DNA from: an uncultured Poribacteria bacterium
Lineage (GTDB): Bacteria; Poribacteria; WGA-4E; PCPOR2b
DNA: 64,000 nt
Reading direction: 5' to 3'
Assembly (NCBI GenBank): GCA_958296125.1
Contig: OY282444.1
Coordinates: forward strand, 3,319,623-3,383,622
A model generated the notes under the pieces. The model ran no database searches. It was given only the letters and a program-made list of their open reading frames with translations, and was not told the origin of the DNA. Positions 39,295-47,086 of the stretch are shown piece after piece (position 1 is the stretch's first letter; the number at the start of each line of letters is the position of its first letter). The translations under genes were made by a program, and so were the position numbers.

Positions 39295-40830
39295 TTATTC
39301 TTCATAGCGCAGGTTGACAATCTTATTGATAGCATTAATGTAGGCTTTCGCACTCGCTTCAATAATGTCCGTGCTGGCACCATGCCCAATAATCACATGC
39401 CCGTTATCCTGCACCCTGATTGTGACCTCACCGATGGCATCCTTTCCCTCGGTCACAGCCCTGATGTTGTAGTCTGCGAGCAGGAGCGGAATCTTGGCGA
39501 TCCGGTCAATTGCCTTGTAGGCTGCATCAACGGGCCCGTCACCGGTGGATGCAGCCTCGATGATGCCTGCTTCGGTACGGACACCCACCGTCGTTGTTGG
39601 GGAGATCCTCGTCCCGCTGACCACCTGAATGTATTTCAATTGGAAAACTTCGGGAATTGAGCGGACCTCGTCTCTCATGATAGCTTCAAGGTCAGCATCG
39701 TGGACCTCTTTTTTCTTATCGGCGATTTTGAGGAATCGCTCATAGATTTTTTCGATCTGTTCCGGTGTTACCTCATAACCGAGCGCATTCAGACGGTGCC
39801 TGAGTGCGTTGCGCCCAGATCGCGGGCTGAGGATAATCTGACTCTCCTGCCAACCGACATCCGCCGGATCGATAATCTCGAAGGTATTTCGCTGCTTGAT
39901 AACGCCGTCTTGATGAATGCCAGAACTGTGTGCAAAAGCATTGGCACCAACGATGGCTTTGTTCGGTTGAACGGAAATCCCCATCGTCCGACTGACGCGA
40001 CGGCTAATCGGAACAATTTCTTTCGTATTGATGTCGGTATAGTAGTCGCTGAAATAGTCTCGACGGGTTCGGATTGCCATCACAATCTCTTCAAGTGCTG
40101 TGTTGCCAGCGCGTTCACCGAGGCCGTTGATTGTGCATTCAACCTGCCTTGCCCCATTTTCAATCGCTTCGAGGCTATTGGCAACAGCGAGTCCGAGGTC
40201 ATTGTGGCAGTGGACGCTGATGATTGCTTGATCAATGTTCGGGACATTCGCTTTGATGTCCGCGATGAGTTTTCCAAATTCAGCCGGCACAGTCCAACCC
40301 ACCGTTTCGGGGATGTTCACAATCGTCGCCCCCGCCGCAATCGTCGCCTCAACCACTTCATAAAGATAGCTTAACTCCGTGCGTCCGGCATCCATCGGCG
40401 AAAATTCGACGACTGCACCGGGGTGCCCGGCAGATAGACTCTTCGCGTAGGTGACAGCGTTGATTGCCATCTGCAGCGTCTCTTCAGGGGAGGTGCGTGT
40501 GATACGTTCTCGGTGAATGGGCGATGTGCCGACAAATGTGTGAATACGAGGTTTTTGTGCATCTTTAATCGCTCCCCACGCCGCGGTGATGTCCTTCTCA
40601 ACCACGCGTGAAAGCGCACAAATTTCCGGACCCTCAACTTCATTCGAGATGCGCGTCACTGCATCGAAATCGCCGGGTGATGAGACGGGGAAACCGGCTT
40701 CGATAATATCGACTTTCAGCTTTGCGAGGTGTTTCGCTATTTCCAGTTTTTCCTCAAGATTTAGTGCGGCACCGGGTGTTTGCTCGGCATCTCGCAGGGT
40801 TGTATCAAAAATATAAACTTTCTCAGACAC
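39295..40830 (-). CDS. leuA: 2-isopropylmalate synthase
   Basis: This 511-residue enzyme condenses acetyl-CoA with 2-oxoisovalerate in leucine synthesis. It shows [13 protein letters not shown] with the catalytic Arg and metal Asp, [32 protein letters not shown], and a C-terminal regulatory domain with [21 protein letters not shown] for leucine feedback. The GTG at 40830 follows AAAAGGAG and gives the normal length. The frame stays open to 40950, where an AAAGGAGGTGATG site could start a 40-residue longer form, so two starts are possible. Confidence 0.94.
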
Positions 40831-41015
40831 GGTGTGATTCTCCTTTTCTGTAACTGCGTTAAATTCAGCTCTTTGTGCTAACGACATCAGATTGTCTTCG
40901 GTATCACGTAAATCCGGTTCTTCGGTAACCGTCAACCCCACCTTCATCACCTCCTTTCGTGAAACGCGATAGGGGATTCCCTTTTAACGCTTTGACTTGC
41001 TTCTTTTAGGCATAA

Positions 41016-41239
41016 TCAGGCTTCACGCCGCTTTTCAGCCAAAACAGTCATCCGCCTCGCATCCAGTGTGTACTCGCTGCCATCAAAATTGCCGAAGACC
41101 TGAATCGGTGCCAGACCTGCACGGTTAAGCATCTTTGTAAACTTAGGATAGAAATACATCCGTCAAACCAGACGAACTTCGCGCACCCTCCCGTCAGGAG
41201 CAATGTAGGTGCGACGCTCTTCATTATTCCCTGTCAAGA
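41016..41239 (-). pseudogene. C-terminal fragment of a class I SAM-dependent methyltransferase
   Basis: The minus-strand frame reads NNEERRTYIAPDGRVREVRLV, shown here without its final stop, then an in-frame TGA at 41163-41165, then RMYFYPKFTKMLNRAGLAP and VFGNFDGSEYTLDARRM before the true stop. This is the usual C-terminal end of type 11/25 methyltransferases (a Tyr-rich strand, then an AGF-like helix, VYGDFDGSxY, DSxRM). Only about 74 residues remain and the stop breaks them. It lies 12 bases after the DAHP synthase stop codon. Confidence 0.6.
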
Positions 41240-41250
41240 GAGAGTTGTCC

Positions 41251-42315
41251 CTACCCTAGGCTCTTATGTGCAGCCTTAAGCAATGAAGCGGTCATTTCCC
41301 AATCAATACAACTGTCGGTGACAGAAACGCCGTATTCAAGCGTGGATCGATCAAACCCCGTTAAGTCAGAAGGTATTTTCTGGCTTCCAGCGTTAATATT
41401 TGATTCTAACATGATTCCCACAATCCCATCATTTCCATCACGAATCTGTTTCAGTATTTCCTCAAAAACAGTGGGCTGCTTGTTGTAATCCTTCTCTGAA
41501 TTTCCGTGACTGCAATCGATCACAACCTTTGGAGACAGGTCCGCTTCCATCAGCATCGCTTGGACCTCTTGAACACTTTGTGAGTCATAATTTGAACTCG
41601 TATTGCTCCCCCTTATCACAATATGAGTATACGGATTACCTGTTGTTCTTACAACGGAGGGAGCCCCATATCCATCAATTCCCAGAAAAGAGTGTTCGCC
41701 ATTTGCAGATAGAATGGCATTGACAGCGACAGAGAGGTCGCCCTGAGTGCTGTTTTTGAAGCCAACCGGCATCGAGAGACCCGAAGCGAGTTGTCTGTGT
41801 TGTGGCGACTCAGTTGTTCGCGCCCCGATCGCCGCCCACGAAACTAAATCAGAATTATATTGAGGCGTGAAGGTTTCAAGATATTCAGTGGCACATGGCA
41901 CCCCTATTTCAAGACTATCCATTAATATCCTTCTTGAGATATATAAACCATCTTTGATATCCCCTGCTCCATTGAGATGTGGGTCGTAGATTAAGCCTTT
42001 CCAGCCTAAACTGGTGCGGGGTTTTTCAAAATAAGACCTGACGATAACAACTAGGCGATCCGAAACAGCATCTGAAACCTCTTTCAATCTGACCGCATAG
42101 TCATGGGCGACCTCTGCATCATGGATAGAACAAGGTCCAACAATGACGAATTTTCGTGGATCGGTGCCATCCAAGATATTTCTGATGCTTGTTCTGCCAT
42201 ATATGACAGTCTGCGTCATCGCATCTGTTCTTGGGAGATCTGTTAGCAACTGTCTTGGACTCATCAAGGTCTGATAGTCTTTGACATTTCTGTCAATTGT
42301 ACCATTGGTTTGCAT
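41251..42315 (-). CDS. aroG: 3-deoxy-7-phosphoheptulonate synthase, class I (DAHP synthase)
   Basis: This 354-residue enzyme makes DAHP from phosphoenolpyruvate and erythrose 4-phosphate, the first step of aromatic amino acid synthesis. It shows FVIVGPCSIHD, YFEKPRTSLGWKGLIYDP, GARTTESPQHR, MPVGFKNSTQGD, VIDCSHGNSEKD and GIMLESNINAGSQ, the class I AroF/G/H pattern. The ATG at 42315 is 10 bases from AGGAGG; the open frame back to 42450 runs through the attenuator and is not coding. The symbol aroG is for the family; AroF or AroH could be the true equivalent. Expression is probably controlled by the attenuator upstream. Confidence 0.93.
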   Translation of the reverse strand: MQTNGTIDRNVKDYQTLMSPRQLLTDLPRTDAMTQTVIYGRTSIRNILDGTDPRKFVIVGPCSIHDAEVAHDYAVRLKEVSDAVSDRLVVIVRSYFEKPRTSLGWKGLIYDPHLNGAGDIKDGLYISRRILMDSLEIGVPCATEYLETFTPQYNSDLVSWAAIGARTTESPQHRQLASGLSMPVGFKNSTQGDLSVAVNAILSANGEHSFLGIDGYGAPSVVRTTGNPYTHIVIRGSNTSSNYDSQSVQEVQAMLMEADLSPKVVIDCSHGNSEKDYNKQPTVFEEILKQIRDGNDGIVGIMLESNINAGSQKIPSDLTGFDRSTLEYGVSVTDSCIDWEMTASLLKAAHKSLG

Positions 42316-42337: not shown

Positions 42338-42378
42338 AAAAAAACGCCCACCATCGAACCTGTCTTCGATAATGGGCG
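42338..42378 (-). terminator. Attenuator terminator of the DAHP synthase gene
   Basis: On the minus strand CGCCCATTATCGAA (42378-42365) pairs with TTCGATGGTGGGCG (42358-42345) over 14 pairs (two are G-U), loop of 6, then seven Ts (42344-42338): a strong intrinsic terminator between the leader peptide gene and aroG. A second copy of CGATGGTGGGCG at 42444-42433, inside the leader coding region, can pair with the same first arm and would act as antiterminator. Confidence 0.85.
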
Positions 42379-42407
42379 TGAATGAACAACCGAATGTGGG
42401 AAAATCT

Positions 42408-42533
42408 CTACATCTTCGATGCGAGGTCTACCCGCCCACCATCGCAGCACAAGTACAACAAAAAGAGATAGAGATAAAGAAAGTAGGGCGTTGTTTGATG
42501 TGCGCTGTGGGTATGTGGGTAGAATTTTTTCAT
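42408..42533 (-). CDS. Phe/Tyr-rich attenuator leader peptide
   Basis: A 41-codon frame begins MKKFYPHTHSA and has the cluster YFLYLYLFLLYL at codons 17-28: five Tyr and three Phe codons in the whole peptide, eight aromatic residues of these kinds out of 41. Ribosomes stalled here for lack of charged Tyr- or Phe-tRNA would leave codons 31-35 free to form the antiterminator; ribosomes reaching the stop would cover it and allow termination. No strong ribosome site is visible, only GAAAGAAA about 8 bases upstream. It lies about 100 bases from the promoter start. Confidence 0.75.
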   Translation of the reverse strand: MKKFYPHTHSAHQTTPYFLYLYLFLLYLCCDGGRVDLASKM

Positions 42534-42642
42534 GGTTGTTTCTTTCAGGTTTACCAATATTGACTGCTCCTATGATAGACTGACCAGTAGCAGTCCGTTC
42601 ACTTCGTTGTTTCTACTACACGCTTCAGGAGAGTATGCAACG

Positions 42643-42671
42643 ATTATAACACATTTCTAAGGCGTGTGCAA
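42643..42671 (-). promoter_or_regulatory. Promoter of the DAHP synthase leader
   Basis: Minus strand TTGCAC (42671-42666), 17-base spacer, TATAAT (42648-42643) with TG ahead of the -10 box. Transcription would start near 42636, about 100 bases before the leader peptide start codon. Confidence 0.75.
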
Positions 42672-44449: not shown

Positions 44450-45262
44450 ATGAAAATTGCAACTAATCCAACCAATGGAGAAATCCTTGATAAGAAAGAC
44501 CCCTATCGCTACGGGTGGCGTGAAGCAATACGGACTTTGTCAGACGGAACAGAAATTCTGGAACGGACCCCCCTAACACTTGAGGACATCCTTCACCCCC
44601 AGGTGGGAGATTACCGAATGCACTCCGATGAACATGAGCGATTTTGTAACTATCTCTACAATGTATTGTCAGCTCGCCTCGCCGATGAACCGGATGCCGT
44701 GGTCTTGCATGACCTGCGCGTGGCGTGGGCCCACCCTTCCCTGAGAGCCCATGGCCCCGACATTGCGGTGATTTTCAACGTTCGGCGGCACATCAACTGG
44801 AGTACCTTCTCGGAAGCAGAAGAGGGGACGAAGCCAAGCTTGATTATTGAAATCGTTTCGCCTTCGACCCGCTCAGTTGATGTTGTCAAGAAGGTTGACC
44901 ACTATGCGCGGGTCGGCGTACCGAACTACATCATCGTAGATCGATTTGAGCGACGGGGGGTCATGGTGCGAGAGTTGGTGGGATACCGGCTCACATCGGA
45001 TGGCTATTCGGATGGCTATGAGGAATTGAGTCCCAATGCGGATGGCTGGCTATGGCTCGATCCTGTCAACCTTTGGCTTGGCTTGGATGGCGAAGATTTA
45101 GTCTGCTATGATGAAAGTGGCGAAGCCACCCTCGATTACGTAGGAGTGACAGCGGCCCGTGCGGCAGCGGAAGCGCGTGCGGCAGCGGAAGCCCAAGCTC
45201 GTGCTGCGGCAGAGGAACGGATTCGTCAACTTGAAGCTGAATTACAGCGTCGTATACCGTAG
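44450..45262 (+). CDS. Uma2 family endonuclease-like protein, tandem copy 1
   Basis: This 270-residue protein has a Uma2 (DUF820) domain: HGPDIAVIFNVRR with Asp, SLIIEIVSPSTRSVDVVKKVDHYARVG with Glu and Lys, and NYIIVDRFERRG. These are the PD-(D/E)XK-like catalytic residues. A C-terminal Ala/Arg/Glu coiled coil follows (AARAAAEARAAAEAQARA then EERIRQLEAEL), with one EAQARAA heptad. An SDGYSDGY duplication lies near residue 185. AAGAAGGG precedes the ATG. First of four tandem copies; function unknown. Confidence 0.88.
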   Translation: MKIATNPTNGEILDKKDPYRYGWREAIRTLSDGTEILERTPLTLEDILHPQVGDYRMHSDEHERFCNYLYNVLSARLADEPDAVVLHDLRVAWAHPSLRAHGPDIAVIFNVRRHINWSTFSEAEEGTKPSLIIEIVSPSTRSVDVVKKVDHYARVGVPNYIIVDRFERRGVMVRELVGYRLTSDGYSDGYEELSPNADGWLWLDPVNLWLGLDGEDLVCYDESGEATLDYVGVTAARAAAEARAAAEAQARAAAEERIRQLEAELQRRIP

Positions 45263-45367
45263 ACCGCCTCGCCCGGAACCAGTCCCATCACTCTCTTATG
45301 TATAGTTCAGGGAAGGCTTAAAGGATTGAGATTAACCGGACTTATTCTTTAAGAAGGGAACATCGCC

Positions 45368-46147
45368 ATGAAAATTGCAACTAATCCAACCAACGGAGAA
45401 ATCCTTGATAAGAAAGACCCCTATCGCTACGGGTGGCGTGAAGCAATACGGACTTTGTCAGACGGAACAGAAATCGTGGAACGGACCCCCCTAACACTTG
45501 AGGACATCCTTCACCCCCAGGTGGGAGATTACCGAATGCACTCCGATGAACATGAGCGATTTTGTAACTATCTCTACAATGTATTGTCAGCTCGCCTCGC
45601 CGATGAACCGGATGCCGTGGTCTTGCATGACCTGCGTGTGGCGTGGGCCCACCCTTCTCTGAGAGCCCATGGCCCCGACATTGCGGTGATTTTCAACGTT
45701 CGGCGGCACATCAACTGGAGTACCTTCTCGGAAGCAGAAGAGGGGACGAAGCCTAGCCTGATTATTGAAATCGTTTCACCTTCGACCCGTTCAGTCGATG
45801 TTGTCAAGAAGGTTGACCACTATGCGCGGGTCGGCGTGCCGAACTACATCATCGTAGATCGATTTGAGCGGCGGGGGGTCATGGTGCGAGAGTTGGTGGG
45901 ATATCGGCTCACATCGGATGGCTATGAGGAATTGAGTCCCAATGCGGACGGCTGGTTATGGCTCGATCCTGTCAACCTTTGGCTTGGCTTGGATGGCGAA
46001 GATTTAGTCTGCTATGATGAAAGTGGCGAAGCCACCCTCGATTACGTAGGAGTGACAGCGGCCCGTGCGGCAGCGGAAGAGCGTGCGGCTGCGGCAGAGG
46101 AACGGATTCGTCAACTTGAAGCTGAATTACAGCGTCGTATACCGTAG
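45368..46147 (+). CDS. Uma2 family endonuclease-like protein, tandem copy 2
   Basis: This 259-residue copy has the same Uma2 core as copy 1 with all apparent catalytic residues. It is the shortest: the SDGY duplication is single, and the coiled-coil tail has no EAQARAA heptad, only AARAAAEERAAAAEERI. It therefore may reflect the unexpanded form or a contraction. Confidence 0.88.
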   Translation: MKIATNPTNGEILDKKDPYRYGWREAIRTLSDGTEIVERTPLTLEDILHPQVGDYRMHSDEHERFCNYLYNVLSARLADEPDAVVLHDLRVAWAHPSLRAHGPDIAVIFNVRRHINWSTFSEAEEGTKPSLIIEIVSPSTRSVDVVKKVDHYARVGVPNYIIVDRFERRGVMVRELVGYRLTSDGYEELSPNADGWLWLDPVNLWLGLDGEDLVCYDESGEATLDYVGVTAARAAAEERAAAAEERIRQLEAELQRRIP

Positions 46148-46252
46148 ACCGCCTCGCCCGGAACCAGGCACATCACTCTCTTATGTATAGTTCAGGGAAG
46201 GCTTAAAGGATTGAGATTAACCGGATTTATTCTTTAAGAAGGGAACATCGCC

Positions 46253-47086
46253 ATGAAAATTGCAACTAATCCAACCAACGGAGAAATCCTTGATAAGAAA
46301 GACCCCTATCTCTATGGGTGGCGTGAAGCAATACGGACTTTGTCAGACGGAACAGAAATCGTGGAACGGACCCCCCTGACACTTGAGGACATCCTTCACC
46401 CCCAGGTGGGAGATTACCGAATGCACTCCGATGAACATGAGCGATTTTGTAACTATCTCTACAATGTATTGTCAGCTCGACTCGCCGATAAACCGGATGC
46501 CGTGGTCTTGCATGACCTGCGCGTGGCGTGGGCCCACCCTTCTCTGAGAGCCCATGGCCCCGACATTGCGGTGATTTTCAACGTTCGGCGACATATCAAC
46601 TGGAGTACCTTCTCGGAAGCAGAAGAGGGGACGAAGCCAAGCCTGATTATTGAAATCGTTTCACCTTCGACCCGTTCAGTCGATGTTGTCAAGAAGGTTG
46701 ACCACTATGCGCGGGTCGGCGTGCCGAACTACATCATCGTAGATCGATTTGAGCGGCGGGGGGTCATGGTGCGAGAGTTGGTGGGATACCGGCTCACATC
46801 GGATGGCTATTCGGATGGCTATGAGGAATTGAGTCCCAATGCGGATGGCTGGCTATGGCTTGAGCCTGTCAACCTTTGGATCGGCTTGGATGGCGAAGAT
46901 TTAGTCTGCTATGATGAAAGCGGCGAAGCTATCCTCAATTACGTAGGAGTGACAGCGGCCCGTGCGGCAGCGGAAGCGCGTGCCGCTGCGGAAGCCCAAG
47001 CTCGTGCTGCGGAAGCCCAAGCCCGTGCTGCGGCAGAGGAACGGATTCGTCAACTTGAAGCTGAATTACAGCGTCGTATACCGTAG
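46253..47086 (+). CDS. Uma2 family endonuclease-like protein, tandem copy 3
   Basis: This 277-residue copy matches copies 1 and 4 in the core, has SDGYSDGY, and carries two EAQARAA heptads in the tail. Small changes include ADKPDAV for ADEPDAV and LEPVNLWIG for LDPVNLWLG. The catalytic pattern is unchanged, so the gene should be functional. Confidence 0.88.
   Translation: MKIATNPTNGEILDKKDPYLYGWREAIRTLSDGTEIVERTPLTLEDILHPQVGDYRMHSDEHERFCNYLYNVLSARLADKPDAVVLHDLRVAWAHPSLRAHGPDIAVIFNVRRHINWSTFSEAEEGTKPSLIIEIVSPSTRSVDVVKKVDHYARVGVPNYIIVDRFERRGVMVRELVGYRLTSDGYSDGYEELSPNADGWLWLEPVNLWIGLDGEDLVCYDESGEAILNYVGVTAARAAAEARAAAEAQARAAEAQARAAAEERIRQLEAELQRRIP

Follow-up and report, generated by a model that had tools for sequence, protein, structure and literature searches.

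The window, a 64,000-nucleotide stretch of DNA from an uncultured Poribacteria bacterium, encodes on its minus strand a class I-alpha DAHP synthase of the aroF/G/H type (41251-42315, 354 aa; TIGR00034, 436 bits with a cut-off of 173). A sequence-only reading had described a single attenuator in front of this gene. Is the gene controlled by ribosome-mediated attenuation, and does the attenuator stand alone? I-beta and type II DAHP synthases were searched for in the same genome and neither was found, so the I-alpha gene seems to be its sole DAHP synthase. Presumably, leuA, coding for 2-isopropylmalate synthase (39295-40947, minus strand; TIGR00973, 700 bits with a cut-off of 599), is the next biosynthetic gene of the same operon and would be co-transcribed with the DAHP synthase gene. 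Ahead of the conserved start, the leuA product is extended N-terminally by about 30 residues, and this extension varies among relatives. Between the two genes (41016-41250, minus strand) lies what appears to be left of a methyltransferase gene, its C-terminal part (..FDGSEYTLDARRMTVLAEKRREA); the gene is full length in the relatives' loci L002-L006. Elsewhere in the window, three tandem ORFs at 44450-47086 (259-277 aa; MKIATNPTNGEILDKKDPYRYGWREAIRTLSDGTEI..) are nearly identical to one another and resemble Uma2-type restriction-endonuclease-like proteins; they terminate in Ala/Glu-rich repeats of differing lengths.

The minus strand from 42671 to 42338 was read and scanned, and was found to hold a promoter, a leader ORF and a terminator, followed by the Shine-Dalgarno sequence AGGAGG of the DAHP synthase gene (42331-42326) and the gene start. 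The promoter (42643-42671) was located where the sequence-only reading had placed it, with a -35 element TTGCAC (42671-42666), a 17-base spacer and an extended -10 element TATAAT (42648-42643) with TG before it, though the -35 element is weak (3/6 consensus matches) and the promoter scan gave a variant with TGCACA and a 16-base spacer. Homologous leaders of other genera have TTGACA and TAxxAT at the corresponding position. The leader ORF MKKFYPHTHSAHQTTPYFLYLYLFLLYLCCDGGRVDLASKM (42408-42533) runs from the ATG at 42533 to the stop codon at 42410-42408, and its 41 codons contain the Tyr/Phe cluster PYFLYLYLFLLYL, again as had been described. Both frame and cluster are preserved in relatives. 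A clear Shine-Dalgarno sequence is missing at this ATG and at most leader starts of relatives.

Four segments of the leader can form alternative pairs. Segment 1 (42499-42522, leader codons 4-12), an element missed in the earlier reading, can pair with segment 2 (42427-42451) and hides it in the minimum free energy fold when no ribosome is present. The stretch between them, codons 17-28 (42450-42485; Y F L Y L Y L F L L Y L), holds the control codons. Segment 2 is the antiterminator 5ʹ arm inside the leader ORF, and its core CGATGGTGGGCG (42444-42433) occupies leader codons 30.7-34.3. Segment 3 (42367-42379) contains the shared arm CGCCCATTATCG (42378-42367), the partner of either segment 2 or segment 4. 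Segment 4 (42338-42356) is composed of the other copy of CGATGGTGGGCG (42356-42345) and a run of seven Ts (42344-42338). The intrinsic terminator (42379-42344), placed between leader and gene, has 15 pairs, where 14 had been counted before. Since the antiterminator 2:3 and the terminator 3:4 both use the terminator 5ʹ arm, they are mutually exclusive, and the pairings 1:2, 2:3 and 3:4 together give the four-segment layout of a trp-type attenuator.

The arrangement had been judged too exact to be accidental, and the statistics agreed. The copy of the terminator 3ʹ arm in the leader is exact, both copies pair with CGCCCATTATCG at 12/12 positions, and a 12-mer pairing equally well with segment 3 was found in 0/300 dinucleotide shuffles of the upstream region. 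The fold of the whole leader gave z = -2.57. The idea that the terminator is a genome-wide repeat was rejected, as the pattern was present once in the 5.16 Mb genome.

The geometry was analyzed with a ribosome walk, in which the footprint was masked codon by codon on an RNA ending just after segment 3 and pairs across the ribosome were forbidden. The probability of the antiterminator 2:3 was about 0.9 with the ribosome at codons 2-26, then fell to 0.73 at codon 27, 0.49 at codon 28 and 0.04 at codon 29. The permissive zone, in which stalling is predicted to free segment 2, thus ends at codon 27-28, and the last Tyr of the cluster is codon 27. The walk over 13 leaders, covering three gene types, placed the end of the zone at the cluster's last Tyr or Ile codon or no more than a few codons from it. 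When the ribosome was absent, the probability of 2:3 was 0 in the window's leader; segment 2 was hidden in this way in several other leaders, not in all. The effect at the Tyr codons vanished when pairs across the ribosome were allowed. In full-length RNA the terminator was always more stable than the antiterminator, therefore the switch must be kinetic, as in classical systems.

We concluded that a ribosome-mediated transcription attenuator of the trp/phe type very probably controls DAHP synthase-leuA via charged Tyr-tRNA and Phe-tRNA. When charged tRNA is sufficient, the ribosome would cross the leader over segment 2, 3:4 would pair, and RNA polymerase would halt at the seven Ts. Under a shortage of Tyr-tRNA or Phe-tRNA, the ribosome would stall at codons 17-27 with segment 1 behind or under it, leaving segment 2 free ahead; 2:3 would then form before segment 4 is synthesized, the terminator would be blocked, and the operon would be transcribed. 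If the leader is not translated, segment 1 would mask segment 2 in the window's genome, and termination would be the default. Computation shows the elements, their conservation, the paired changes, the geometry and, within the family, the agreement between leader residue and gene; that the leader is translated, that stalling and termination take place, that leuA is co-transcribed and which amino acid dominates we infer, Tyr being the most constant. This anatomy and the comparative data below support the earlier proposal, in which a ribosome halted on Tyr/Phe codons leaves the duplicate arm available for an antiterminator.

A leader precedes a DAHP synthase-leuA operon in 17/18 genomes examined, spanning four families. 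The one exception is G004 (88% complete), where the search gave no DAHP synthase with a leader. The I-alpha gene is present in 7/85 Poribacteria genomes, all within the window's family, and in 6 of these seven the leader lies immediately upstream of it (MKNVYLQPHIANQTTLYFFYLYLFLLYLRCDGGRVDPASKM and similar sequences in the window's genus, ..SYTVYLYSFVLFTFLLYLRCGGGLAEIMEEP in another genus). In the seventh, G008, the leader MQKFQLQTIAYLYFYTLGLFMRLLYLHNDGGLAKIAR is placed before an I-beta gene with I-alpha immediately downstream, so that both enzymes are in tandem. I-beta alone follows the leader in G007, G009, G012, G016, G011 and G014, and in the genomes G010, G019, G026 and G041 of family f3, provisionally labelled sponge-type; the arms of sponge-type leaders (e.g. 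ALGLYLYLYLYLYSYARW) differ, with the logic unchanged. I-beta is the gene behind the attenuator in most other genera and I-alpha in the window's genus, with the same leader. The replacement of I-beta by I-alpha behind one leader, together with the surviving tandem intermediate, suggests regulation outlasting the gene. The simplest history would be that the attenuator served I-beta first, that I-alpha joined the operon behind I-beta, and that I-beta was then lost.

Alignment of homologues, a check proposed in the sequence-only reading, showed that the Tyr/Phe cluster, the second copy of the arm and the terminator persist in homologues from four families, with paired changes; one relative, G005, has lost the copied arm. 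Across 22 sites, 97% of pair cells of the terminator were kept, 5 pairs were changed on both sides, and its covariation was reached in 0/500 shuffles. The antiterminator 2:3 was paired in 93% of cells, and its covariation score was reached in 3/500 shuffles; this weaker covariation is expected because the antiterminator arm is also under coding constraint. The protector hairpin 1:2 was present in the window's genome and several others, and absent in some relatives. In G005, leader and terminator are retained and segment 2 is lost, and the operon should be locked in termination or relieved in some other way. An I-beta DAHP synthase without a leader (L184) is present in G005 as well, and the loss of antitermination may therefore be tolerated. 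The locus itself (L002, upstream of aroF) is a natural deletion that took out segment 2, with the leader frame and the terminator remaining.

The terminator core was then used as a query: the pattern GCCCAT(C/T)ATCG..CG(A/G)TG(A/G)TGGGC was searched in 85 Poribacteria genomes, with the reversed pattern as control. It was found in 13/85 genomes (reversed control, 0), and the gene behind it was almost always that of DAHP synthase, ileS, leuS or tyrS. The leaders of these genes (e.g. RNIRLSIGIISIIIIIPSCDGGLMETK for ileS, ITYLYYYTSVLFVPALYLHGDGGLAKLVK and VRFLYLFYWCYSDGLAAT for tyrS, STLLDLVLLRLRGLVGGGVPDWR for leuS) were compared over the 15 codons before segment 2, using one leader per genus and genus-level permutation. 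Ile averaged 5.8 per 15 codons in ileS leaders vs 0.23 elsewhere (p = 2e-4). For Tyr, the averages were 3.18 in the leaders of DAHP synthase and tyrS and 0.00 in the rest (p = 5e-5), and for Leu 6.0 in those of leuS and 3.1 in the rest (p = 0.045). These p-values are optimistic, since frames were chosen by eye, mostly as the frame in which segment 2 reads Asp-Gly-Gly; the contrast is large nonetheless. In G008, the attenuators of DAHP synthase and tyrS are identical at 155/189 bases (82% DNA), which points to a duplicated attenuator.

The attenuator was present as the sequence-only reading had described it. That reading saw one attenuator; it belongs to a family whose other members control ileS, tyrS and, probably, leuS. 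The leuS attenuator is called probable because its segment 2 in G007, G009 and G012 was not clearly above shuffles in a gapless 12-mer test. In the window's genus a terminator is present before leuS, but leuS seemingly has its own promoter behind it, and this case was not counted. The ileS attenuator is absent from the window's own genome and present in four of the genus; no leader was found before tyrS in the genus. No terminator was found for valS in 9 genomes, and using segments 2 and 3 together as the query added no further gene. A degenerate-looking relative of the attenuator core, with a short ORF MSWKQILLVVVIAAVVSFLTAVAVTFLMWYSM, was seen before a ureidoglycolate-lyase-like gene (L099:1380-1615; G002 C58). 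The family spans an order of Poribacteria and several genes, and is apparently undescribed.

Could the same region be read without a translated leader? The terminator might simply end an upstream transcript, with the short ORF as a chance product of a pyrimidine-rich spacer and the aroF promoter behind the terminator. The leader cluster is indeed pyrimidine-rich, and the window's genus has a related terminator before the separate leuS promoter, apparently a relic or an ordinary terminator. At aroF, however, the distance from the last T to the ATG is 22 bases including the Shine-Dalgarno sequence, where a promoter cannot fit, and neither the dependence of the ORF's residues on the downstream gene nor the conservation of the second arm copy across families would be expected of chance; we regard this explanation as very improbable. 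Slightly less credit still is due to a leader RNA of the T-box or riboswitch kind that binds tRNA or a metabolite and senses tyrosine without translation. DAHP synthase, ileS, leuS and tyrS include typical T-box targets, and GGUGG occurs inside segments 2 and 4, but the window had no match in Rfam at the gathering threshold and the leader none even at E<1. Moreover, the leaders of different genes have mainly the terminator arms in common, and it is their coding content that varies with the gene.

Ribosome-mediated attenuation is also compatible with a refinement, in which leucine is sensed besides Tyr/Phe, with both kinds of codon in the alternating Leu/Tyr series exerting control. This is proposed because the operon yields aromatic precursors and leucine. 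Behind the DAHP synthase with the leader, leuA is present in 17/17 leader genomes, and it does not follow the leaderless I-beta paralogue of G004, G005, G009 and G012. DAHP synthase leaders average 4.3 Leu per 15 codons, DAHP synthase and leuS leaders taken together have 4.6, against 1.4 for the remaining leaders (p = 0.001), and the leader of one genus reads LYLYLYLYLY. Action of the Leu codons is plausible, given the invariable leuA partner and the excess of Leu; on the other hand, pyrimidine-rich codons also give rise to Leu incidentally, and the count falls to 1 Leu per 15 codons in one genus (g7, G011). We consider Leu sensing a tentative addition, somewhat short of an even chance.

The mechanism itself is ordinary, classical ribosome-mediated attenuation. 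What is new is the lineage, the set of targets, the copying of the attenuator between genes and, possibly, the joint sensing of Tyr and Leu. With some reserve, we suggest a broader picture that may perhaps hold: one module was copied among DAHP synthase-leuA, tyrS, ileS and leuS, its control codons were swapped around a near-constant core, Tyr/Phe and Leu are read jointly on DAHP synthase-leuA, and the module outlived the replacement of the enzyme. The loci form a natural series, in which one switch core carries Ile, Leu or Tyr/Phe codons depending on the gene.

In the trp leader, the stop codon is ahead of segment 2 and the control codons are inside segment 1. In the window's leader, in contrast, the reading frame continues through segment 2 to a stop codon beyond it, and the control codons fall between segments 1 and 2. 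Like the attenuators of the E. coli trp, pheA and pheST leaders (Yanofsky 1981; Springer 1985; both cited in PMC11802643), the Poribacteria attenuator has control codons in a leader ORF, the hairpins 2:3 and 3:4 as alternatives, and an intrinsic terminator; pheST is an example of this type on a tRNA synthetase. The closest functional parallel is aroR-aroF of C. glutamicum (Neshat et al. 2014, cited in PMC11802643), an experimental precedent with a Phe/Tyr-codon leader peptide before an operon with DAHP synthase and read-through on stalling. AroR has a Phe-Tyr-Phe motif, and the Poribacteria cluster is longer and Tyr/Leu-rich; in addition, the Poribacteria operon includes leuA and its attenuator family is shared with tRNA-synthetase genes. 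Likeness is claimed for the mechanism only. Given this precedent, the description of the leader as unusual was overstated. An aromatic leader with a terminator was also found before 10/76 class I-alpha DAHP synthase loci of other phyla and in no shuffled sequence, in records titled Deltaproteobacteria/Desulfobacteraceae, Chloroflexi/Dehalococcoidia and Latescibacterota (L018, L020, L021, L033, L047, L049, L053, L057, L065 and L080; e.g. YRYFYFYFYYAF and RLFYFWFYYFY).

Among tRNA-synthetase genes, leader attenuators are known or predicted for pheST, trpS, leuS and hisS (PMC11802643; PMC1262725; PMC2965389). Our literature search, with most subscription journals outside its coverage, gave no leader-peptide attenuator for ileS or tyrS and no report of leader-peptide attenuation in Poribacteria; the present loci extend it to this phylum and to both genes. 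In Streptomyces, classical leader-peptide attenuators were predicted for trpS and leuS (Seliverstov et al. 2005, PMC1262725), and ileS is a T-box gene in Actinobacteria (PMC1262725). The Poribacteria, another phylum, add ileS and tyrS, with near-identical terminator arms across genes. The His leader peptides of hisS/hisZ in bacilli (Naville and Gautheret 2010, PMC2965389) resemble the present case as attenuators beyond Proteobacteria and Actinobacteria that are similar between two targets. hisS and hisZ are, however, paralogues, whereas DAHP synthase and tyrS of Poribacteria are non-homologous genes with attenuators of 82% identical DNA.
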